Origin: Candidatus Zixiibacteriota bacterium
Lineage (GTDB): Bacteria > Zixibacteria > MSB-5A5 > GN15 > FEB-12
Length of the DNA stretch: 64,000 nucleotides
Assembly: GCA_024276275.1 (NCBI GenBank)
Contig: JAJRXM010000066.1
Location: forward strand, 1 to 64,000
Reading direction: 5' to 3'
Shown: in pieces, positions 1,912 to 15,728 of the stretch
How the letters are laid out: every line of letters begins with the position of its first letter
How positions within the stretch are numbered: the first letter of the stretch is position 1
Position numbers and translations under genes: made by a program
The notes under the pieces: model-generated
The model's database searches: none
What the model was told of the DNA's origin: nothing
Seen by the model: only the letters and a program-made list of their open reading frames with translations

Positions 1912-2769
1912 TTACTTTAACAAAAGCATCTTTTTTGTAATTTCTTTATTTCCGGTCAATAATTTATAAAAATAGACCCCCGAAGGAGCTGTTTTTCCGT
2001 CGTTTTGTAAACCGTTCCAGGTAACACTATGATTTCCGGCTGAAAGATTCTCTTGAACTAACTTTGTAACTGATTGTCCCAGTAAGTTATAAATTTCAAT
2101 TGTCACAAAAGATCTTTCAGGCAGAGAAAAATCAATTATTGTTGACGGATTAAAGGGGTTCGGATAATTTTGACTTAACGAGAAAGATTGAGGGAGAGTC
2201 TGTTCATCGTCTATATCCAAAGAGATATCAAATCTGACTTTCAAAGAATCTGAATATCCGAAAATACCTGTTGTACCGTTATGGCTGATGAAGGTATGCA
2301 TCGGGAGTGCAAAAGTTCCTGTTGTGGAACAGATAACTTTATATTCTATTACTACAGTATCATTTGGCTGAACAAGCTGATTATACAAACCTGAGCTGCC
2401 GGGATAATCCAACACCCAATAATGTTCATTATAACCGAAAAAAGCTGAACCGGTTGAGGGGGTCGGATAGTCGTAACTAACAGATATTCCATTAATCGTA
2501 ACCGTGTGAGAAATTATCGAAAATTCATTCGGCAGAATATCACAAAAATAAAAACAGGTAAGAGGGTTTGTTTCATTATTGATACATGTTCTTCTGATAG
2601 TTATAGTATCGCCTACTACTGCTACTGTATCACTAAGAATATAATCGGACTGAACAGAGACAGATGTTGGAAATACAGAGTCATTTACAGCATGTACGGT
2701 TGACACGCTCAACAGACAAAAGGTAATTATAAAAATTATAAGTTTCTTATTCAAATGGTAAGTGTTCAT
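1912..2769 (-). CDS. Secreted protein with DUF11-like domain and C-terminal sorting (FlgD/type A-like) domain
   Basis: 285 residues. A signal peptide (about 1-27, ending VHA) leads into a beta-rich region with conserved aromatic and Gly residues that resembles DUF11/CARDB-type adhesin modules. The last 90 residues are a textbook FlgD-Ig-like or T9SS type A C-terminal domain: SLSQNYPNPFNPST, then VTIEIYNLLGQ, GNHSVTWNG, SGVYFYKL and a terminal KKMLLLK. The start overlaps the end of epsI by 23 bp, so translational coupling with the exosortase genes is likely. It may be a substrate or a surface partner of that system. No type IX secretion core gene is visible here, so its export route beyond Sec is uncertain. 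Confidence 0.75.
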   Translation of the reverse strand: MNTYHLNKKLIIFIITFCLLSVSTVHAVNDSVFPTSVSVQSDYILSDTVAVVGDTITIRRTCINNETNPLTCFYFCDILPNEFSIISHTVTINGISVSYDYPTPSTGSAFFGYNEHYWVLDYPGSSGLYNQLVQPNDTVVIEYKVICSTTGTFALPMHTFISHNGTTGIFGYSDSLKVRFDISLDIDDEQTLPQSFSLSQNYPNPFNPSTIIDFSLPERSFVTIEIYNLLGQSVTKLVQENLSAGNHSVTWNGLQNDGKTAPSGVYFYKLLTGNKEITKKMLLLK

Positions 2770-3373
2770 ATATCTCTTTCAGTATTAATGTTTGGAACTC
2801 TTCTAAAGCTTTTAAACTTTTTGGGTCATCCTTGCTGACAAATCGAACAAATGCAATATCTCGTGGTTTAAAGGTAAGTGCTGACATCAATTCATACAAC
2901 TTAAAGATATAATCATTCGCAGTTTCACCATAATGAGTAATATACCAAAAATCCATAACTTTGGTAGATTTATTTAACTGTAATTGGAACCGTCCTGCAG
3001 GAATGACAGAATTTGCGTTTTTAATATCATTAGAAACTGTTTCGGTTATTATCCATCCGGAACCGGGGAGACAGTTACGGGGAGAGTGAGGACCCCCGAA
3101 AGTTGCATCCGATGAGAAGAAATCAAAAAGCAGATGTACCGAAATACCGTCGCTGTTTATATAAGTTGCTGAAATAATTGCTTGTGGGTTTAATATCTCA
3201 AGCACTTCAGGGTCAACCTCTTCTTTTGTTCCTTTCCAGTCACCGATTTCAAGCGGAAAAGAATCAAAGTTTACATCACCCGCCGAAGCCGGTCTGTAGA
3301 ACTTGATGAACAGGGTCATTATGAATGTTATTGAAATAACTACGATGCTGATATAAAACGATTTCTTATCCAT
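2747..3373 (-). CDS. epsI: Exosortase-associated EpsI-family protein
   Basis: 208 residues. One N-terminal membrane segment (about 6-24) is followed by a periplasmic domain with the EpsI/DUF3485 signature: a SFPLEIGDWKG start (about 38-49) and the diagnostic HSPRNCLPGSGW block (96-107, Cys101). EpsI proteins are encoded beside or fused to exosortases and are thought to assist sorting of exported proteins or polysaccharide export; the precise reaction is not established. The start lies 34 bp inside the exosortase gene and the end overlaps the next gene by 23 bp, a tight operon. Length and motif order are normal for the family. Confidence 0.87.
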   Translation of the reverse strand: MDKKSFYISIVVISITFIMTLFIKFYRPASAGDVNFDSFPLEIGDWKGTKEEVDPEVLEILNPQAIISATYINSDGISVHLLFDFFSSDATFGGPHSPRNCLPGSGWIITETVSNDIKNANSVIPAGRFQLQLNKSTKVMDFWYITHYGETANDYIFKLYELMSALTFKPRDIAFVRFVSKDDPKSLKALEEFQTLILKEIYEHLPFE

Positions 3374-4203
3374 TGTAAGATCGCTCCTAAAATTAACATC
3401 ATTATCAAGGCTGTAAAAAATACAATCATACCCGAAAGCTCATGTAAGAAATCTTCAGCCAACTCTTTACTGACAGCATAAGCACCGAGTGCTGTAGTGA
3501 ATATCCTAAATATATTTGTCGCAATGGCAATCGGGACGGTGGCACAAAATATAATAATAGGTATGACTTTTCCGGGAAGTCTTGTATAGGCATATAATGC
3601 CCCTAATGCCAAAAGTGTCATTAAGGACCGAAGTCCTGAACATGCCTCTACTACTTCCAGCATATAATTAGGCAGAGCAATGATATTACCGTTACGGGCA
3701 ACCGGTACACCGATTACTTCAAGGAGTACAACAGTTACTTTTGTAGCAAATAACTGTAGCGGTAATGTAGCTGCATAATAGACAATCGACGGTATCGGAA
3801 TCATAAACAGTAGAAAGAAAAACGGAAACCAGACTTTTTTAAAATTTTTGTATCCGATAGAGTAGAGAGCAAAACCGGTAAGAGCTGTCAGAAACCCGAT
3901 TCTGGTTGTGAAATACTCCGATGCTGCTGTGCCGAGAATGAGGAAAATAAGACCTAAAATAAAAATAAAAAGTCCGCTTTTTGACTTTACTGCCGGGAAA
4001 ATCAGTTCATTTCGTTTCTTATAAAAAAGATATATAGAAATCGGTATTATAAAAAAACCGTGAGAGTAGTTATCATCTTGCCACCAGTCACCGATTAAAT
4101 CTATAAAAAGCGGGACATTTGTTATAACTAAAAGCAGAACAACAAGATAGGAGCACCTAAATTTCTTGACATGTTTCTGGATTTTTTCTTTTTCTATCTT
4201 CAA
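3340..4203 (-). CDS. Exosortase (membrane cysteine transpeptidase)
   Basis: 287 residues with about eight membrane segments. The three residues of the exosortase active site are in order: Cys188 in EACSGLRS, Arg233 in NIFRI and His254 in DFLHELSG. Exosortases cut short C-terminal anchors (PEP-CTERM-like) off exported proteins in organisms with extracellular polysaccharide. I see no PEP-CTERM-type anchor (motif, transmembrane helix, basic tail) on any protein in this window, so its substrates are either elsewhere or of a different kind. Downstream epsI overlaps it. The divergent SGNH-fold pair starts 146 bp upstream, and that AT-rich gap probably holds both promoters. Subfamily not assigned. 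Confidence 0.9.
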   Translation of the reverse strand: MKIEKEKIQKHVKKFRCSYLVVLLLVITNVPLFIDLIGDWWQDDNYSHGFFIIPISIYLFYKKRNELIFPAVKSKSGLFIFILGLIFLILGTAASEYFTTRIGFLTALTGFALYSIGYKNFKKVWFPFFFLLFMIPIPSIVYYAATLPLQLFATKVTVVLLEVIGVPVARNGNIIALPNYMLEVVEACSGLRSLMTLLALGALYAYTRLPGKVIPIIIFCATVPIAIATNIFRIFTTALGAYAVSKELAEDFLHELSGMIVFFTALIMMLILGAILQWIRNRFISAS

Positions 4204-4349: not shown

Positions 4350-5105
4350 ATGCATAAAGTCTTAAAAGTAACCCTTATATTGTCATTAATTGCCAATGTT
4401 GCGATATTTTATGTCGCCTATAAAGCTCACGAATACAGAAGTCATATTAACCATTTTTTAACAAAATACCGTCATGTCTCTCAGGAATTTTCTGAAAGAG
4501 GTGCGTATAACTTAGAGAATCTGAATTTCAGATCTGATACGACAGTTTCAGACAGAATTATTTTTTTTGGTACACAAGTAACGGCAAATTATAATCTTAC
4601 TGTTCACTTTCCCGAGTATGAAGCTCTCAATCGAGGTGTCAGTGGACAAAGAGTAGCAGGCTATTTGTTACGGTTTAAACCGGATGTTCTCGATTTAGCA
4701 CCAAAGGCGGTAGTTATAGAAATCAGCTCTTATAATTTCAGACCGGAAAACTCAATCAAAGAAATTCAGGATTATACTGAACTTTTGGCTCAACTCTCTC
4801 TTATTAATAAAATTCAACCGATTCTGACAACCGTTCTGAAGCCGAGAAAGTCATTTGCCGATGTAATAGAAATAAAAGAGCTTGGAGAGTACAATTTGTT
4901 TGATTCCGTTGATACATATAATAGATGGTTACGGGAATATAGCAAAAAAAATAAGATGCATCTGGTCGATTTTTCTTTACTTCTTGGCGACGGTAACGGT
5001 TATTTACAAGAGCAATATTCAGTTAACTTGGTTGAACCAAACGAAATTGGGTATAATGTTTTAACCAAAGCAATAAAAATAGAATTAGAAAAAATAGGTA
5101 GGTAA
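4350..5105 (+). CDS. Membrane-anchored SGNH/GDSL-fold protein lacking catalytic residues
   Basis: 251 residues: one N-terminal membrane anchor (about 5-25), then an SGNH-hydrolase-like domain. The block order is clear but the catalytic positions are replaced. Block I reads IIFFGTQVTAN where active relatives read FFGDSITAN, so the nucleophile Ser is Gln. Block II is NRGVSGQRV. Block III is VVIEISSYNF instead of the GTND pattern. The last block is VEPNEIGY instead of DGLHPNEEGY, so the His is lost too. This therefore looks like a pseudo-enzyme, perhaps a carbohydrate-binding or assembly partner. It precedes the second SGNH-like gene by only 4 bp. I infer a role in surface polysaccharide modification from the neighbouring exosortase. 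Confidence 0.68.
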   Translation: MHKVLKVTLILSLIANVAIFYVAYKAHEYRSHINHFLTKYRHVSQEFSERGAYNLENLNFRSDTTVSDRIIFFGTQVTANYNLTVHFPEYEALNRGVSGQRVAGYLLRFKPDVLDLAPKAVVIEISSYNFRPENSIKEIQDYTELLAQLSLINKIQPILTTVLKPRKSFADVIEIKELGEYNLFDSVDTYNRWLREYSKKNKMHLVDFSLLLGDGNGYLQEQYSVNLVEPNEIGYNVLTKAIKIELEKIGR

Positions 5106-6073: not shown

Positions 6074-7726
6074 ATGAATAAATATATCTCACAATTATTT
6101 GCTATTACATTTGGTTTACTTCTCTGTATCGCGAGTCCGATTGATTCAAATGAGAATTTATCAGAAGAGGTTACATCTATTTCTCTTGGAACTATCCAAC
6201 GGTTTTATCCTCTTGCCGAACATCGTTCACTTCTTGCTATACCGAGACGCAAAATACAGGTAGTCGGTGATACTATCTATTTGTTTAACGCCGCCAACGG
6301 TTCAAACACTATGTACTGGCTTTATTCAACTGATAAAGGAACGGTCTGGGATACAGTCGGATATGGAAATTCTGACGGTGATATTGACGGTCCGTATTAT
6401 GACCATCATTTTCAAACTTGGGAGGCAAACGGAATGCATTTTGCTACAGGACAGAGCGGTAACTCAGGTCTTTGGTACCGATATATAAATCCTCCTGTTC
6501 AAACAGCAACAGACAAAGAACCTATAATTACTCTTGATAGCCGCTTGTTGAATTGGTCAGTATCTGTTGCGGCAAGTTCAGCAAATGAAATTTGGCTGAC
6601 CGCCAGATACGATAGCGACTCACTTGTTTTTTACCATACGACTGATCGTTTTCAAACAGTTGCTCATTCCGGTTTTATCGGTAATATAAATCTTCCCCGT
6701 TTAGATACCCGTATAGGTTCTTGTATCGACGATAACGGCAATGCTGTTTTTGTAGCACTATTAGCAGGTATGGGTGGAGGAACCGACGGATTTTATTATT
6801 GGCAGTGGAGTGATGTTGAAAATAGGTTTGTAGGTAATGCCGATTCTGCTATTGTAACCGGCTCAATAGGTATGGCTCATCGCGCATACAGTTTCAACTT
6901 TGTTAATAACCGTTTACATTTGGCGTATTCCGATTCTCCTTGGGCAAGCGGCAGTACGATCATTCATCACTTATATCAGAACGGTTCCGGTGGATGGGTT
7001 CACGATACCGCTTCTGTCATAGGGCGGGAGCTTGGTCTGGAAGCATATCCGATTTTGAGTAATCGGGGGGATTCTTTGTATCTGTTTTATAATACTACCC
7101 CTGAAATTGCTATGAAAATTTTTGATTTAACAACATATCAATGGCTTGCCGATTCAACACTAATTACCGATGCAACCGATAGCTGTCGTTCGATACAAGT
7201 TCCTCAAACAGTATATGGCGATTTTATTCCGGTTGCCTGGGTTAATGCTCGAACAAGTCGATTAAGTCAACGCACAGTAAATTTTACGACCTCGTTTTTA
7301 GATTCTGATAATGACGGTATCCCAGATAGTTCTGATAACTGTCCGAATGATTATAATCCTGCCCAGACCGACAATAACAATAACGGTATAGGTGATGTCT
7401 GTGATTCACTTGCAACAGATATTAATGATACCAATGATAATAATATTCCTGATAATTTTTCACTATCGCAAAATTATCCAAACCCGTTTAATAACTCTAC
7501 TGTTATTAATTTTGTAATTCCTTCGCACGCTATTGTCGAATTTTCAATTTACAATATTTTAGGGAAAGTAGTTTATCAAAAAAGTGAACAGTATAATGCC
7601 GGCATTCATCAAATATACTGGGACGGTAAAAGCAGTTCCGGCGATGATATCTCAAGTGGAATCTATTATTATCGCATTCAAACTGAATTATATGATGAAA
7701 CTAAGAAAATGCTTCTTTTAAAATAA
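6074..7726 (+). CDS. Secreted propeller-like protein with thrombospondin type 3 calcium repeats and C-terminal sorting domain
   Basis: 550 residues. Signal peptide about 1-23. Residues 35-410 are a Trp/Gly/Asp-rich repeat region resembling BNR/sialidase-type propellers, without a clear catalytic signature. Residues about 413-455 hold Asp-rich calcium motifs (DSDNDGIPDSSDNCPNDYN, then NNNGIGDVCD) typical of thrombospondin type 3 repeats. The end is a sorting-type domain (SLSQNYPNPFNNST, SIYNILGK, GIYYYRI, KKMLLLK). The N-terminal half is paralogous to the broken gene at 1-426. The two lie in opposite directions at the two ends of the exosortase locus. Probably a cell-surface or released protein of unknown ligand. 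Confidence 0.72.
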   Translation: MNKYISQLFAITFGLLLCIASPIDSNENLSEEVTSISLGTIQRFYPLAEHRSLLAIPRRKIQVVGDTIYLFNAANGSNTMYWLYSTDKGTVWDTVGYGNSDGDIDGPYYDHHFQTWEANGMHFATGQSGNSGLWYRYINPPVQTATDKEPIITLDSRLLNWSVSVAASSANEIWLTARYDSDSLVFYHTTDRFQTVAHSGFIGNINLPRLDTRIGSCIDDNGNAVFVALLAGMGGGTDGFYYWQWSDVENRFVGNADSAIVTGSIGMAHRAYSFNFVNNRLHLAYSDSPWASGSTIIHHLYQNGSGGWVHDTASVIGRELGLEAYPILSNRGDSLYLFYNTTPEIAMKIFDLTTYQWLADSTLITDATDSCRSIQVPQTVYGDFIPVAWVNARTSRLSQRTVNFTTSFLDSDNDGIPDSSDNCPNDYNPAQTDNNNNGIGDVCDSLATDINDTNDNNIPDNFSLSQNYPNPFNNSTVINFVIPSHAIVEFSIYNILGKVVYQKSEQYNAGIHQIYWDGKSSSGDDISSGIYYYRIQTELYDETKKMLLLK

Positions 7727-7804: not shown

Positions 7805-8470
7805 ATGTTTAATAAACTATCAAATTTTATAATCTACTGTTTTGTCCTTGTATCGGTCTTTCACATTCCAATTAATGCAGAACCTGAACGTCTTTTGCGT
7901 GATGTTGTACCGGTTGAACAACTGATAAATTTAAAACTTAATCCTGATGAATCGCATTACTCCGGCAATACGACTATCACACTTGATGTTGTCAAGAATA
8001 GCGAATCATTTTTGTTTCATGCCGAGACTATAGACATTCAAAATCTTAAACTATCTTTTGGTAAAAAAAATATCTCCTGTTCTTTTGAAAAATATGATGA
8101 TACCAAAATTAAAGTAATTCCTGAAACTTATTTGGAGCTTGGGCGATATCTGCTTGAGATTGAATTTGTAAATAACTTTGACACTCAGGCAAATGCTGTG
8201 TACCGCATGGAAACTGAGGGAGAGTCTTATGTATATTCTCAACTTGAAGCGGATGAAGCCCGTGAAGCGTTTCCTTGTTTTGATGAACCGATTTTTAAAA
8301 TACCTTATCAATTAACAATGACTGTTCCGGAACAAGATTTTGCCGTAACCAATACACCTATTGAATTTCAGGAAACAGTAGACGGTTGGACAACATATCG
8401 TTTTAAAAAGAGTAACCCGATGCCGTCATATTTAATTGCGGTTGCTGTCGGACCATTTGAGTTTGTCTAA
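7805..8470 (+). CDS. pepN: M1 family aminopeptidase, N-terminal part (ends at an in-frame TAA)
   Basis: Signal peptide (about 1-25) followed by the N-terminal beta domain of M1 metallopeptidases: FDEPIFKIPYQLTMTVP and the closing YLIAVAVGPFEF. The SD AGGAG sits 8 bases before the ATG. The reading frame stops at TAA 8468-8470 but continues in the same frame as IPDMPIPSR, exactly as an uninterrupted M1 protein would, so TAA takes the place of one residue, most likely Glu (GAA). There is no SD ahead of the next ATG. This half has no active site and would be useless alone. See 8480-10429 for the remainder. Confidence 0.85.
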   Translation: MFNKLSNFIIYCFVLVSVFHIPINAEPERLLRDVVPVEQLINLKLNPDESHYSGNTTITLDVVKNSESFLFHAETIDIQNLKLSFGKKNISCSFEKYDDTKIKVIPETYLELGRYLLEIEFVNNFDTQANAVYRMETEGESYVYSQLEADEAREAFPCFDEPIFKIPYQLTMTVPEQDFAVTNTPIEFQETVDGWTTYRFKKSNPMPSYLIAVAVGPFEFV

Positions 8471-8479
8471 ATACCCGAT

Positions 8480-10429
8480 ATGCCGATACCGAGTAGAATA
8501 GTAACACCAAAGGGTCGGTCACATCTTACTCAAACAGCAATAGAAACTACTCCACCTATTTTGGAAGCATTAGAAAAATACTTTGACAGGTCATATCCCT
8601 TTGAAAAGTTAGACTTGATCGCAGTACCTGAGTTTTGGCCGGGTGCGATGGAAAACCCGGGGGCAATTACTTTTGCCGAGGGAATTTTATTAGTTGATAA
8701 TGAACATGTTACATCGGCACAAAAACTCAGACTGGCGATTGTAACAGCTCATGAATTATCCCACATGTGGTTTGGAGATTTAGTGACTATGGAGTGGTGG
8801 GATGACTTATGGTTAAACGAATCTTTTGCTCATTGGATGGGAAACAAAATAACAGATCAAGTTTTTCCTGAATTTGAACTCAGTGTAAGCAAAGCAAGTT
8901 CTTCCAATGGAGCGATGGTCGGCGATGCTCAACAAGCTGCTGCTGCTATAAAGCGACCGATAAAATCTATGTCTGACCTTTTAAGTAATATCGGTGCCGT
9001 TTATAACAAAGGGGACGCGGTCTTAAGTATGTTTGAAAAGAAAATAGGGGAAGAAAAATTTAGAGAAGGTATCTTAGATTATATAAATGATAACGCATGG
9101 GGCAATGCAACTGCCGATGATTTATGGCTGGCACTACAGAAAGTATCTGACTTTAATTTACCTAAAGCGATGACTACATTTATTGAAAAACCCGGGGTTC
9201 CCTTAATAACAATTAAACAGCAAAAAGATAACAGTTTTATTATAAGTCAAAAACGGTTTGCTAATTATAACAATTCTTTTGACAGTTCTTTGCTATGGGA
9301 GATACCTCTTACAATTAAGTATGCATCGGGGTCATCAGTTAAAACTAAAACGATTTTGTTGTCTGAAAAATCAAAAACAGTAACTCTTTCTGCTGACGGT
9401 GCAATATCTTGGATAATGCCGAATGTAAATGCTGATGGATATTACAGATGGGTTACCTCGCCTAAGATGTTAGTTAAACTTGCCTCTGATGCCGAAAAAA
9501 TAATGACACCTATTGAAAGAAAAAGTTTTTTACTAAATTCTGCGGCATTGTTAGATGCCGGTTTATTAGGCGGTGGAGATTTTCTTGAGATTATTTCACA
9601 TTTTAATAAAGAACCGAATTTAACAGTAGTCTCAACTGTAATGCAGACACTTTCTAAAGTAGAAAGCTCTTTTTTAACAGATGAATTTCGTGATGAATTT
9701 GCGGTATATGTCAATAATACTTTGCAGTATTCAATGCAGAAAATAGGGTTTGACCCTAAAGCGGATGAATCCGAAAGAACTGAAATGCTTCGTCCTCGAT
9801 TAATAAATTGGCTTGCCGACCATGGGAAAAATAAAGAGGCTCTTTCTTTTGCCGAAGAACAATTTACGAAATTTATGGAATCGCCCGATTCTGTCGAACC
9901 GTCAATAATTGCCGTTTCGGTTTCACTGGCATGTATTCGTGGAGATATAAACTTGTTTAACGAGTGTAAAAAACGCTTTGAAAATGCAAGCGTTCCTGCA
10001 CTTCGACAAAGGTTTTTAGCAGCTTTAGGCTCTTTTGAAAATAAGGATATTCAAGATACCGCATTGCAATATGCTTTGGAAGGTCCTTTACGCCCTCAGG
10101 AGTTTTTTGGAATACCGGGGGGGATTGCCTCGGTTTCATCCGAGCGGGCAGACTATGTTTTTGATTGGCTTTCCCGGAATTTTGAAAAAATAACTAATAT
10201 TATTCCACCCCAATATCATGCATATTTACCTTATTTTGCGGGAGGATGTTCAGCAGAAAGAATTGCTGCTGCCAAACTCTTTTTTGGTAAAGAGGAAAAT
10301 CAGTCACCGGGAACATTGACTCAGTTGACCAAAGTAACCGAACAAGTACAAGATTGTATTACTCTCAGAGATAGAGAAAAAGATAACGTAGAGCAATATC
10401 TCAAAGAATTTGTTTTAGTTCAAAAATAA
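8480..10429 (+). CDS. pepN: M1 family aminopeptidase, catalytic and C-terminal part
   Basis: In frame with 7805-8467; together 874 codons, the normal size of an M1 enzyme. It contains the substrate-binding PGAMENPGAITF motif and the zinc site HELSHMWFGD with the third ligand Glu in WLNESFAHW (H316, H320, E339 in whole-protein numbering). These enzymes release N-terminal amino acids from peptides. The signal peptide on the first half makes this an exported enzyme of the periplasm or surface. The C-terminal half is the helical ERAP1_C-like region. The first ATG here (8480) lacks a ribosome site, so separate translation is doubtful. Confidence 0.88.
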   Translation: MPIPSRIVTPKGRSHLTQTAIETTPPILEALEKYFDRSYPFEKLDLIAVPEFWPGAMENPGAITFAEGILLVDNEHVTSAQKLRLAIVTAHELSHMWFGDLVTMEWWDDLWLNESFAHWMGNKITDQVFPEFELSVSKASSSNGAMVGDAQQAAAAIKRPIKSMSDLLSNIGAVYNKGDAVLSMFEKKIGEEKFREGILDYINDNAWGNATADDLWLALQKVSDFNLPKAMTTFIEKPGVPLITIKQQKDNSFIISQKRFANYNNSFDSSLLWEIPLTIKYASGSSVKTKTILLSEKSKTVTLSADGAISWIMPNVNADGYYRWVTSPKMLVKLASDAEKIMTPIERKSFLLNSAALLDAGLLGGGDFLEIISHFNKEPNLTVVSTVMQTLSKVESSFLTDEFRDEFAVYVNNTLQYSMQKIGFDPKADESERTEMLRPRLINWLADHGKNKEALSFAEEQFTKFMESPDSVEPSIIAVSVSLACIRGDINLFNECKKRFENASVPALRQRFLAALGSFENKDIQDTALQYALEGPLRPQEFFGIPGGIASVSSERADYVFDWLSRNFEKITNIIPPQYHAYLPYFAGGCSAERIAAAKLFFGKEENQSPGTLTQLTKVTEQVQDCITLRDREKDNVEQYLKEFVLVQK

Positions 10430-10652: not shown

Positions 10653-13600
10653 ATGCATCGGATTATCTATATTGTTTTATTACTTTTATTTTCAACATCT
10701 CTCTCATTTGCTGCTTTAAATAATAAACAAATATCCCCAATTGAAAAAGATATTACAATGTATCATTCCAATTCAAAAGGAATACCTACATTTGTATCAG
10801 GTAACTTACGTGACAAAGTTGTCAAAGGGGCAGAACTACAGGCGGTTCATGATTATTTTGAAATTAATAAAGACAGATATCAAATACAATCTCCAGTTGA
10901 TGAACTACAACTGTTAAAGACAGAAATTGATGAACTCGGTATGACCCATCTCAGGTTTAAGCAGAGGTATAAAGGTCTTGAGGTTGTCGGTGGTGATATA
11001 AATGCACATTTTAGAAACGACGGAATGTTTACCTCGGTCAATGGTACTTTTAATCCGATTAAAAATATGAACATAACCGCACAGGTTCTCGCATCAGATG
11101 CTCTCACTCGCGCAACCGATGATTTATTAATTGATTTTGGTGTCGGCACTCCGACAAAACCACAGCTTGTAATTTTCCCTTGGCAGAAAGAAACATACCT
11201 TTGCTGGAGATTCTTTATTATTTCAGACTCTCCAATGGGAAGGTGGGAGTATTTTATAGATGCCACTACCGGAGATATTATTTTTAAAGCAAATAGAATA
11301 ATGAATGCCGAGGCTGTCGGAAGCGGTACCGGGGTTATGGGGAACTCATATAACCATATTGATACATGGGATAACGGAACAGATTTTGAAATGATAGATT
11401 ACACCCGTCGTGCTTCTAATAATATACATGGGCATAACGGACAGATGGCATCGGGTGCATTTATTCGCACCTACTTGGCAACCTCAGCACTACCTGGTTC
11501 AGTTGCGACAGATGCTGATAATGTTTGGGGTGGTACTACCTATGCTCCGGCAGTAGACGGTCATATGTATTCAGTCTTATTTTATGACTGGATGCTACGA
11601 GAATTTGGGCGTAATAGTTATAACAATAGTGGTTCTTCAATGAACATTTCAGTAAACTATTCTGCCGAGGGTGATAACAACGCTTATTGGAACGGTTCGC
11701 AAATTGTGATTTGGTCGTGGTCTACAGGATGGCGTTCGCTTGCCGGATGTCCCGATGTTGTCGCTCATGAATGGGGACACGCCGTTACAGAAACTACTTC
11801 GGGATTAGTGTACCAATTAGAATCCGGTGCATTAAACGAGTCATTCTCTGATATGATTGGTGCTGCATTTGAATTTGCTCATGACACTCTTGATACTCCT
11901 GACTGGTTGATGGGTGAAAATGGTACAACCTCCGGTTCGGGGTTTCGTGATATGCTTAACCCGCATAGTAAAAGCGATCCTGATTTTTACGGAACTTCTG
12001 ATCCATACTGGATAGATGTTGTCGGATGTACTCCTCAACAATCAAATGATTGGTGTGGAGTTCACACAAACAGCTCGGTTGGAAACAGATGGTTTTCTTT
12101 ATTATCAGACGGGGGATTGCATTATGGTGTAACAGTAACCGGCCTCGGTGTTGATACAGCTATGATGATAGCCTTTCGGGCAAACACAGTTTATTGGACA
12201 GCAAATATAGACTATCAAAATGCTGCTATCGGTACAATTTCAGCAGCACAAGATTTAGACCCGAGTGGAAATTGGGAATTCCAAGTTGCTCAAGCATGGA
12301 ATGCAGTCGGTGTTTCTACGCCGGCACCCTCTCTAGCATTTTCTTATCCTAACGGAAAACCTACAACTACAACTCCGCTTGTTGATACAACCTTTGATGT
12401 TGTCGTTTCAGGTTCATTGGGAGGAGTACCAATTTCAAACACAGGACAAATTTATATTTCCATCAACGGAGGAGCGTATCAAAGTTTTTCAATGCCGGAA
12501 ACTTCTCCAAACAATTATTTAGCTACATTACCCGGAAGTCCATGCGGGGATATTATCGATTATTATTTCTCTGCCGATATGGTTAGTCCGGCTGTCACAG
12601 TCTATGACGGTTCTTCATCAACTCCGTTTACGGCAGTACCTTCTACGGGTTCTCTTACAGTTTTCACCGATGATTTTGAAACTGATTTAGGTTGGACCAT
12701 ATCAGGAGGTAATTGGGCAAGAGGTGTTCCGAGCGGTGGGGGTGGAGCATACGGAAACCCTGACCCGACATCGGGAACAGTCGGCTCAAGTGTCATGGGT
12801 TATAACCTAAACGGCGACTATGCCGATAACATCCCTGAATATCATGTTACATCACCTGCTATAGATTGTTCGACAATATCAACAGCACGATTACAATTCG
12901 ACCGTTGGCTTGGAGTAGAAGAACCGGCATATGACCATGCATATATTAGAGTGAGTACAAATAATACAAGTTGGACTACTGTATGGGAAAACAGTATTGA
13001 AGTAGCAGACAATGCCTGGACAAATATGGATATAGATATTTCAAGTATTGCTGCACTGCAGTCAACAGTTTATATCCGATTTACGATGGGTACTTCTGAC
13101 GGTGGATGGACTTTTTGTGGCTGGAACATCGATGATTTACGTATTACCGGTGCCGAATGTACTGCCGCTCCGACTGTTACTATCACAACTACATCGTTAC
13201 CTAACCAGACAGCGAACCTTGCTTTTTCACAGCAGTTGACAGCAACTAATAATACAGGTGTACTAAACTGGACAGATAAAAATAGTGACTTATCACCGAC
13301 CGGACTGACTCTTTCAACTTCCGGTTTGTTGAGTGGAACCGTAACAAGTGCCCAGCTGATTTCATTTACCGCTATGGTAACTGATGACCTAAGTTCTGAT
13401 GAAAAATTATTATCATTTACTATCAACCCGGTTATTACTACCTCAAATACAAGTGTACCGAACTGGACCGAGTCAGTATTGCTTTCGCATCAATTTACTG
13501 CATCGGGAGGTACCGGGACATTGGTTTTCGCAGATAAAAATAATGATTTGACCGGTTCAGGTTTATCAGTTTCATCGACCGGTTTATTAAGCGGAATTCC

Positions 13601-15728
13601 TACAGCAGGAAACTACAGCTTTACTTTGTTAGTTACTGATTCATTAGGGGCTACAAATGAAACTATAATTCCAATTACAATAAATTCGGCGATTGCTATC
13701 TCTAATACAAATGTATCTATTTGGACAGAAGGCTTAGCTCTTTCGCATCAGTTTACGGCAACAGGCGGAACAGGACAGCTCATTTTTTCAGATAAAAATA
13801 ATGATTTAATCGGTTCGGGTTTAACGGTTTCATCATCCGGTCTGTTAAGCGGAACTCCTACAGCAGGAAACTTTAGCTTCACACTATTAGTTACTGATTC
13901 TGTTGGAGCAACTACCGAAACAATTGTTCCGTTTACAATAAATGCAGTGATTGTTATATCAAATACTACAGTTCCAAACTGGACAGAGGGAATCGCTCTT
14001 TCGCATCAGTTCTCAGCCTCAGGAGGAACAGGAGCATTACTCTATTCGGATAAAAATAGTGATTTAAGCGGCTCAGGTTTAATTGTTTCATCATCAGGTT
14101 TGTTAAGTGGAACTCCTGCAGCAGGTAATTACAGTTTTACATTGTTGGTTACTGATTCTTTGGGAGCAACGACAGAAACAATTGTTCCAATTACAATAAA
14201 CCAACCTATTGTTATTGTTAATACAACTGTACCTGATTGGACCGAAGCAATATCTCTTTCACATCAGTTTAGTGCAACAGGTGGAACCGGTATTTTAGTT
14301 TTCACAGATAAAAATAATGATTTGATAAGTTCGGGTTTAACAGTTTCAGCGAGTGGACTTTTAACCGGAATTCCGATTGTTGGAAACTACAGTTTTACAT
14401 TGTTAGTTACAGATTCTTTGGGAGCTAATTCTGAAACTTTAGTTTCAGTTACTATTAACGCATCTGTCGTTATTTCGACACTTACTTTACCTGATGCTAA
14501 CGTAGGAGTTGCCTATTCTCAACAGATTAATGCCTCTGGAGGTACAGGCAGTTTAGCATTTACAGATAAAAACAATGACTTAATTTCAACAGGTTTTACA
14601 TTATCTTCTACCGGACTTTTGTCAGGAACATCTGCTATTACCCAGACAATTTCATTTACTGTTGTTGCTACCGATTCTGTAGGAGCGTTTTCTGAACAGT
14701 TCTTATCAGTTACCGTAACTCAAGAGATTATTATCACTCCTCCGTCTTTCCCAGGTTGGACGGCCGGAGTTTCGTTCTCAGAACAGATAATTGCCACAGG
14801 TGGAACCGGGACGTTAGTCTTTACAGATAAAAATAATGATTTAGTACCTTCAAATTTAACACTTTCGACAACAGGATTGTTGTCCGGTGTTCCTCTCGGT
14901 GGAACGTTTAATTTTATTTGCCTGGTGACAGATTCATTAGGTGGAACAAAAGAACAAGCAATGTCGGTTTCTATTAATGACTCATTAAAAGTTGTTACTT
15001 CAACTCTTTCGGACTGGACTGTTGGAATAGCATATTCTAAACAATTGATTCGTTCGGGCGGGACAGGGTTTGTCTCTTTTGCTGATAAAAATAATGACTT
15101 GAGCGGTTCGGGACTTACTATTTCATCAACGGGAACATTAAGTGGTACGGTTCTATTAGTCGGTTCATATACTTTTATTGTAGAAATATCCGATGCTGTC
15201 GGAGCTGTAGCTGAAAAACAACTTACTATTAATATCAATGACTCGGTAACAATTACAACAACTGCATTGCCGGATGGAGACTCAAACACAGGATATATTC
15301 AGCAGTTACAATCAGCGGGTGGTACCGGGGTTGTTACTTGGGTTGATAAAAACAACGACTTTGCTTCAACAGGACTAGTCTTACAATCTGACGGTTTGAT
15401 CACAGGAATTCCTGTTGTTATCGGAAACATAACTTTCACAGCAGTTGCTACCGACGATGTTGGTTCGACAGATGAACAACCTTATACATTTGAAATATTT
15501 ATGGGTTATGTCTGTGGAGATATTGATAATAGCGGAGGAATTGATATCTCCGATTTAGTCTTCATAATAAATTATATGTTTTCCGGTGGACCTGCTCCGC
15601 CTGTCTTAGCATCAATGGATGTTGACGGGTCCGGTACAATAGATATTTCCGATGTTGTCTATTTGGTAGCGTATATGTTTGGCGTTCCTCAAGGACCCGA
15701 CCCGATATGCGGTGTTCCAATTCAATAG
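10653..15728 (+). CDS. Secreted thermolysin-family (M4) metalloprotease with nine Ig-like repeats and a dockerin
   Basis: 1691 residues. Signal peptide about 1-20. FTP/PepSY-like propeptide about 40-210. M4 catalytic domain with HEWGH (H372, E373, H376) and the third zinc ligand Glu396 in GALNESFSD, then the M4 C-terminal helical domain to about 555. A jelly-roll-like module (about 670-835, FDRWLGVEEPAYDHAYIRVS) follows. Residues about 840-1616 are nine tandem Ig-like (He_PIG) repeats of about 86 residues with SGGTG, DKNNDL, GLLSG and VTDSLGA landmarks. The tail is a dockerin with two calcium loops (DIDNSGGIDISDL and DVDGSGTIDISDV). SD AGGAGG precedes the ATG. Likely an extracellular protease; partner cohesin not seen here. 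Confidence 0.9.
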   Translation: MHRIIYIVLLLLFSTSLSFAALNNKQISPIEKDITMYHSNSKGIPTFVSGNLRDKVVKGAELQAVHDYFEINKDRYQIQSPVDELQLLKTEIDELGMTHLRFKQRYKGLEVVGGDINAHFRNDGMFTSVNGTFNPIKNMNITAQVLASDALTRATDDLLIDFGVGTPTKPQLVIFPWQKETYLCWRFFIISDSPMGRWEYFIDATTGDIIFKANRIMNAEAVGSGTGVMGNSYNHIDTWDNGTDFEMIDYTRRASNNIHGHNGQMASGAFIRTYLATSALPGSVATDADNVWGGTTYAPAVDGHMYSVLFYDWMLREFGRNSYNNSGSSMNISVNYSAEGDNNAYWNGSQIVIWSWSTGWRSLAGCPDVVAHEWGHAVTETTSGLVYQLESGALNESFSDMIGAAFEFAHDTLDTPDWLMGENGTTSGSGFRDMLNPHSKSDPDFYGTSDPYWIDVVGCTPQQSNDWCGVHTNSSVGNRWFSLLSDGGLHYGVTVTGLGVDTAMMIAFRANTVYWTANIDYQNAAIGTISAAQDLDPSGNWEFQVAQAWNAVGVSTPAPSLAFSYPNGKPTTTTPLVDTTFDVVVSGSLGGVPISNTGQIYISINGGAYQSFSMPETSPNNYLATLPGSPCGDIIDYYFSADMVSPAVTVYDGSSSTPFTAVPSTGSLTVFTDDFETDLGWTISGGNWARGVPSGGGGAYGNPDPTSGTVGSSVMGYNLNGDYADNIPEYHVTSPAIDCSTISTARLQFDRWLGVEEPAYDHAYIRVSTNNTSWTTVWENSIEVADNAWTNMDIDISSIAALQSTVYIRFTMGTSDGGWTFCGWNIDDLRITGAECTAAPTVTITTTSLPNQTANLAFSQQLTATNNTGVLNWTDKNSDLSPTGLTLSTSGLLSGTVTSAQLISFTAMVTDDLSSDEKLLSFTINPVITTSNTSVPNWTESVLLSHQFTASGGTGTLVFADKNNDLTGSGLSVSSTGLLSGIPTAGNYSFTLLVTDSLGATNETIIPITINSAIAISNTNVSIWTEGLALSHQFTATGGTGQLIFSDKNNDLIGSGLTVSSSGLLSGTPTAGNFSFTLLVTDSVGATTETIVPFTINAVIVISNTTVPNWTEGIALSHQFSASGGTGALLYSDKNSDLSGSGLIVSSSGLLSGTPAAGNYSFTLLVTDSLGATTETIVPITINQPIVIVNTTVPDWTEAISLSHQFSATGGTGILVFTDKNNDLISSGLTVSASGLLTGIPIVGNYSFTLLVTDSLGANSETLVSVTINASVVISTLTLPDANVGVAYSQQINASGGTGSLAFTDKNNDLISTGFTLSSTGLLSGTSAITQTISFTVVATDSVGAFSEQFLSVTVTQEIIITPPSFPGWTAGVSFSEQIIATGGTGTLVFTDKNNDLVPSNLTLSTTGLLSGVPLGGTFNFICLVTDSLGGTKEQAMSVSINDSLKVVTSTLSDWTVGIAYSKQLIRSGGTGFVSFADKNNDLSGSGLTISSTGTLSGTVLLVGSYTFIVEISDAVGAVAEKQLTININDSVTITTTALPDGDSNTGYIQQLQSAGGTGVVTWVDKNNDFASTGLVLQSDGLITGIPVVIGNITFTAVATDDVGSTDEQPYTFEIFMGYVCGDIDNSGGIDISDLVFIINYMFSGGPAPPVLASMDVDGSGTIDISDVVYLVAYMFGVPQGPDPICGVPIQ
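13172..15500 (+). repeat. Nine tandem Ig-like repeats inside the M4 protease gene
   Basis: About 259 bp per unit. Copies 2-5 are the most alike in protein and DNA (NWTEG...LSHQF, YSFTLLVTDS), copies 1 and 6-9 are more diverged, which suggests recent expansion in the middle of the array. Such arrays are prone to collapse in short-read assembly. Confidence 0.85.

Follow-up and report, generated by a model that had tools for sequence, protein, structure and literature searches.

The acylation of surface polymers in bacteria is understood to depend on two components, an acyl-moving membrane protein of the MBOAT or AT3 type and an active SGNH protein. For alginate, acetylation requires AlgI, a predicted MBOAT protein, whereas AlgJ and AlgX each carry a catalytic triad and the polymer is bound by AlgX and hardly by AlgJ (PMC4148444). 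Several polymers are acylated by MBOAT-SGNH pairs (PMC12148441). Since AlgJ and AlgX both have triads, this pair offers no precedent for the coupling of a degenerate with an active SGNH protein. The closest precedent found for a degenerate SGNH domain is Oskar (PMC2848206), and a search of the open-licence literature by title found no paper on a bacterial pseudo-SGNH protein of polysaccharide systems. Protein A, encoded in a stretch of 64,000 nucleotides from a Candidatus Zixiibacteriota bacterium (the whole of which is referred to here as the window), is best read as new as a lineage of SGNH pseudoenzyme.

Protein A has a short hydrophobic N-terminal anchor, followed by a linker and the SGNH domain (Table 1). 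An earlier note on this DNA, made from the letters alone, had described it as a membrane-anchored protein of SGNH fold that adjoins a second SGNH-like protein, and these statements hold, as do the open reading frame, its coordinates and the three sequence blocks that were quoted. Pfam PF13472 (Lipase_GDSL_2) matches A above cut-off (E 4.7e-11), the structure 4hf7 from the PDB matches residues 45-248 of the single sequence (E 1.9e-17), and a profile of 30 orthologues matches 4hf7, 4iyj and 3p94 at approximately 1e-33 to 1e-35, with 4iyj and 4hf7 at about 1e-35. Judged from these alignments, the SGNH relationship is far beyond chance, and blocks I, II, III and V are detectable in order. A structure model built from three sequences (mean pLDDT 52) has as its best PDB matches SGNH/GDSL proteins or scaffolds made from one, at TM-scores of around 0.4-0.5. 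In the PDB alignments Gln76 lies opposite the nucleophilic Ser, and Asn226 and Glu229 lie opposite Asp and His. The claim that all catalytic residues had been replaced is thus correct for Ser, Asp and His, but too broad for the Gly of block II, which is kept (Gly96 in 32 of 32 orthologues), and for GTND, a change of the same kind being present in the intact-type relatives of A. For the Asn of block III, between whose possible counterparts sequence cannot choose, the single-sequence alignment to 4hf7 pairs Asn129 with the catalytic Asn and the profile alignment pairs Tyr128; Asn129, found in 29 of 32 orthologues, is therefore either the catalytic residue shifted by one position or a sign of its loss, depending on the alignment.

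Table 1. Features of the window around protein A (position 1 is the first letter of the window).
Feature	Position	Strand	Basis
A, SGNH-fold pseudoenzyme (best reading), 251 aa, N-terminal membrane anchor	4350..5105	+	ORF, Pfam and PDB matches; 32 orthologues among 132 class genomes
Predicted membrane anchor of A, approximately residues 6-24	4365..4421	+	Hydrophobic stretch; helix 2-48 in low-confidence model
Juxtamembrane segment of A, residues 25-50	4422..4499	+	Conserved in A (Y29, R30, N34, Y40 invariant), not in clade B
Block I of A, FFGTQVTAN	4563..4589	+	Gln76 at nucleophile position, codon 4575-4577
Block III of A, EISSYN	4719..4736	+	Glu124, Ser126 in place of Lys, Cys of intact-type families
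Block V of A, NLVEPNEIGY	5025..5054	+	Asn226, Glu229 at Asp, His positions; relaxed in A
P2, neighbouring SGNH-like protein with membrane anchor, 273 aa	5110..5931	+	Ser63, Asp249, His251 kept; top PDB fold matches SGNH, PatB first
Exosortase, EpsH/XrtA type	3340..4203	-	PF09721 E 5.4e-68; TIGR02602 E 2.5e-60, above cut-off; transcribed away from A
EpsI, exosortase-associated	2747..3373	-	PF11984 E 2e-31; TIGR02914 E 3e-24, above cut-off
Secreted protein, T9SS type A sorting tail; follows epsI	1912..2769	-	TIGR04183 E 2.6e-13

A first search for relatives of A covered 194 genomes and gave matches in 49; the profile search covered 132 genomes of class Zixibacteria and 62 further genomes outside the class. 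Orthologues are present in 32 of the 132 class genomes, each scoring at least 330.8 bits with the next score at 207.9; this level is not reached in any of the 62 genomes from outside. Among these 32 sequences (clade A), site 76 is Gln in 29 and Thr in three, site 229 is Asp, Glu, Ile, Thr, Leu or Gln, and site 226 is Asp in two. Ser at site 76 and His at site 229, whose presence in close orthologues the earlier note had regarded as the mark of a recent decay, occur in none of them. The same note had proposed to look for conservation of the Gln and the Glu at the former catalytic sites; Gln76 is largely conserved and Glu229 is not. An alignment of 30 of the 32 clade A rows (L036, which has a stop, and L043, with a long open frame, are omitted) contains 25 invariant columns.

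A lower-scoring set of 26 sequences, clade B, shares with A its architecture and family (hhalign E 1.3e-72). Unlike A, it retains Ser (26 of 26, which is true by definition as the two sets were split by the residue at site 76, with L036 placed in A by hand), Asp and His (each 25 of 25, one row being cut by a contig end). Independent support for the split comes from the trees and from the gap in bit scores. A first tree, in which the row of L043 was wrongly cut, supported A at 97/90 and B at 96/80, and a second, with this row corrected and the columns of the anchor and of blocks I, III and V removed, gave 94/90 and 70/67. By these sequence comparisons A is a single clade, sister to the paralogous clade B. 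With A lying on one side of the branch, the loss of the catalytic residues would have happened once, or would at least have been inherited in common by the members of A.

The two clades are each fixed for a residue of their own at three sites and no more, S76Q, K124E and C126S, the alignment of clade B holding 22 of its 26 rows (L067, L071, L072 and L041 are left out). The changes specific to A, as the alignments place them, are accordingly Ser to Gln, Lys to Glu and Cys to Ser, together with the loss of Asp and His. The juxtamembrane segment also sets the clades apart, with 11% of alignment windows as conserved in A against 84% in B. Absence of GTND was considered as a mark of degeneration and dropped, since block III reads CSxN in clade B and SCYPN in P2, so that the classical motif is missing in A, B and P2 alike. 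No clade B copy was found elsewhere in the genome that contains the window, where the matches were A itself and two weak pieces of P2.

The neighbouring protein, P2, begins four bases past the stop codon of A and has an N-terminal anchor of the same kind. No Pfam family reaches its cut-off on P2, which is therefore SGNH-like by profile and fold evidence and not by membership of a curated family. Its weak structure model (pLDDT 64) has SGNH proteins as best matches, with PatB first (E 1.1e-4), and in profile comparisons to which the anchor contributes part it matches B at E 7e-14 and A more weakly (E 1.1e-7). There are 27 full-length matches to P2 in the 194 genomes, leaving uncounted six weaker P2-like ones (G082, G091, G097, G106, G117 and G155). 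In the family table, which holds 26 of the 27 (G050 is not included), Ser63, Lys131 and Cys133 are each present in 26 of 26 and Asp249 and His251 in 25 of 25. Profile alignment sets Ser63, Lys131 and Cys133 opposite the Ser, Lys and Cys of clade B, which means that the three sites at which A departs from clade B set it apart from the P2 family too.

Clade A genes lie directly beside a clade B gene in six genomes, where the two stand in tandem, and directly beside P2 in another six, making 12 of the 32. Somewhere in the genome B or P2 is present in 22 of the 32, and neither was found in 10, in three of which (G005, G012 and G078) A is near a contig end and its neighbour could be missing. Across the 132 genomes, A occurs with 'B or P2' in 22, A without either in 10, B or P2 without A in 31 and none of them in 69 (Fisher p 3e-4, ignoring kinship). 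Clade B, in 26 genomes, and full-length P2, in 27, never share a genome (hypergeometric 0.0012, again ignoring kinship); this exclusion applies to full-length matches, as G091 holds B plus a weaker P2-like match. It would fit interchangeable partners. The combination of a degenerate protein with a possibly active one, which the earlier note had proposed, is thus supported at the level of residues, in that P2 has kept its putative catalytic Ser, Asp and His and is probably active, and A is elsewhere paired with an intact B.

The genes near A include Wzy_C, glycosyltransferases and a FemAB-like GNAT protein, together with relatives of exosortase-A-associated hydrolases and amidotransferase that score below the curated cut-offs. 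Of the 32 A loci, 20 have at least two polysaccharide-type genes within 10 kb, compared with 1 of 20 control stretches, a count that is biased upward for A by the definition of these families from the A and B loci themselves, and downward by the short contigs on which several A loci lie. No polysaccharide gene was counted near A in L037, L040 and L051, which are order-level relatives, or in L058. The pairs of A with B or P2 are mostly found in exopolysaccharide or exosortase loci. Separately, amino acid racemase genes (c15) occur near A or A-B pairs in L039, L041, L045, L048, L049 and L052, and methylaspartate-mutase-like genes (c34) in L041, L045 and L048, one member of each group having been scanned; these hint that the polymer may carry amino acids as an unusual decoration.

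The explanation that we favour, and to which we would give about an even chance, is that A is a conserved SGNH pseudoenzyme, the non-catalytic member of a pair with an intact SGNH partner at an exopolysaccharide or exosortase locus. The protein would be anchored in the membrane and face the periplasm. It would have arisen within the Zixibacteria from a Ser/Asp/His SGNH paralogue of the clade B type, lost its nucleophile and the Asp/His pair once in the A lineage, and since been retained with conserved pocket residues of its own (Gln76, Glu124, Ser126, Ser127 and Arg131) and with the juxtamembrane segment. Presumably without activity itself, A may bind the partner enzyme, or else polysaccharide that is acylated or still growing, and might in this way position or regulate an intact SGNH acyl-esterase or acyl-transferase, P2 in this genome and clade B elsewhere. 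We infer the pairing itself, as well as the candidate substrate.

An alternative is that A is alive with changed chemistry, such that a new active site, made up of Ser126/Ser127, Glu124 and Gln76, occupies the old pocket and still acts on acylated glycans. In keeping with this, Glu124 and Ser127 are present in 32 of 32 clade A sequences, Ser126 in 31 and Gln76 in 29, and block III is more tightly constrained in A, with 1% of alignment windows as low in entropy against 7% in B, which places it in the most conserved 1% of A. The tighter block III and the relaxed block V of A also speak for the favoured reading. However, the variable residues at site 229 occupy the general-base position, and block V is relaxed in A, where 44% of alignment windows are as low in entropy against 3% in B. 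Moreover, block III commonly begins with a Glu in GDSL proteins, so Glu124 need not be catalytic. Altogether, we consider a new active site unlikely.

It is also doubtful that the locus encodes a system for O-acetylation like AlgI/AlgJ/AlgX or PatA/PatB, in which A would be the polymer-binding SGNH protein. The polymer binding of AlgX and the range of polymers acylated by MBOAT-SGNH pairs lend this some weight, as do the first place of PatB among the PDB matches of P2 and the arrangement in G032, where A is followed by an MBOAT gene and then by another SGNH gene, which hints that A can serve an MBOAT-type system. G032 is, however, the one genome of 32 with an MBOAT near A. MBOAT genes are present in seven of the 32 A genomes and absent in the other 25, and neither an MBOAT nor an AT3 acyltransferase was found in the genome of the window, which is 95% complete such that one gene could have been missed. 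The AlgX/AlgJ-like acetylation system suggested by the earlier note consequently fits as far as the polysaccharide-rich loci go and is loosely supported overall, but in its strict form is not supported in this genome, and in AlgJ and AlgX themselves both triads are intact.

The exosortase gene raises the further possibility, which we rate as quite improbable, that A has a direct part in the exosortase pathway, where it could be a chaperone or a receptor of exosortase substrates, and that its SGNH ancestry is incidental. The exosortase is divergently transcribed from A in the genus of the window; the order of exosortase, EpsI and the T9SS-sorted protein is retained in G002 and G003, while G001 retains it for exosortase and EpsI. 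Nine of the 32 A genomes have an exosortase within 5 kb of A, but the remaining 23 do not (the distances for A, B, P2 and exosortase were taken from best matches, and weak exosortase matches are partly left out), and genomes of the class that lack A commonly have exosortases. Four PEP-CTERM-like tails above cut-off are encoded in the genome of the window (G000:C82:9954-10025 and 13589-13660, G000:C13:94235-94303 and G000:C46:3215-3274) and are possible substrates of its exosortase, although the model is short and also exceeds its cut-off in two of 14 control genomes.

Four members of the genus of the window differ in the A gene at 54-70% of fourfold sites and at 27-40% of residues by codon-position counts, as would a constrained gene, which counts against decay. 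That A is decaying and about to be lost, as the missing catalytic residues and an in-frame stop in one of the 32 copies (G008) could suggest, is very improbable given the invariant columns, the 31 copies without an internal stop and a loss common to 32 genomes, which excludes a recent decay.

Other genes, in the window and elsewhere, gave several observations in their own right. A 101-aa ORF at 121-426 reproduces the beginning of the T9SS protein encoded at 6074-7726 (LLAIPRRKI, YWLYS.DKG), as if it were a broken duplicate. The protein at 516-1865 has a C-terminal tail, IDxxIxxF..G.ATEQDVxDLIxxYNxG, in common with otherwise unrelated-looking proteins of L034, L035, L062, L067, L068 and L069 (cluster c17). 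In the one pair compared, the tail of 519-1865 and that of a secreted protein encoded elsewhere, 32 residues align at 50% identity; no second copy of this 32-residue tail was found in the genome of the window. Secreted c17 proteins (L062 11020-12180 and others) contain an H[YR]SVG motif, compared with HHSVG in P2; they adjoin a hexapeptide acetyltransferase gene and clade B, and have a weak profile match to P2 (probability 61). Finally, the gene at 7805-10429, which we take to be M1-aminopeptidase-like, is split by an in-frame TAA at 8468-8470, its second part continuing in the same frame from 8480, while its counterpart in the relative L081 (2363-4975) is a single open frame of 871 codons.

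The favoured reading, that A is a pseudoenzyme working with an intact partner, can be extended to a two-part SGNH system, in which a dedicated pseudoenzyme marked by the S76Q, K124E and C126S changes would act with an interchangeable active B or P2 and modify exopolysaccharide without MBOAT or AT3, possibly with acyl groups derived from amino acids or through CoA-ligase. Such acyl groups are conceivable because the loci repeatedly contain amidotransferase, CoA-ligase and FemAB-like genes; the extension as a whole is tentative and rather unlikely. If true, the pairing of a conserved pseudoenzyme with an intact-type relative in a genome that yielded no MBOAT or AT3 would suggest that exopolysaccharide can be modified by another route. 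In either case, A and its putative partner provide a specific and testable protein pair in a little-cultured phylum.

Among described proteins, the putative GDSL/SGNH acylhydrolases 4hf7, 4iyj and 3p94 from Bacteroidales resemble A in the domain aligned over residues 45-248 and in block II. However, 4hf7 and 4iyj retain Ser, GTND and DGVHP, whereas A is membrane-anchored and is without Ser, Asp and His. AlgJ/AlgX and PatB, which as SGNH O-acetyltransferases work with an MBOAT, share with the present pair the SGNH fold, a link to cell-surface polymers and an extracytoplasmic location, which is predicted for A, and PatB is the best fold match of P2. They differ in that AlgJ/AlgX have catalytic triads and PatB an acetyl-Ser intermediate (PMC4148444, PMC12148441), and in their reliance on an MBOAT, absent from the genome of the window. 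Oskar is an arthropod germ-plasm protein, fused to an RNA-binding-type domain and with no polysaccharide context, but its OSK domain is like A in that the SGNH Ser and His are disrupted (PMC2848206), and the entry 5a4a is among the fold matches of the weak A model.
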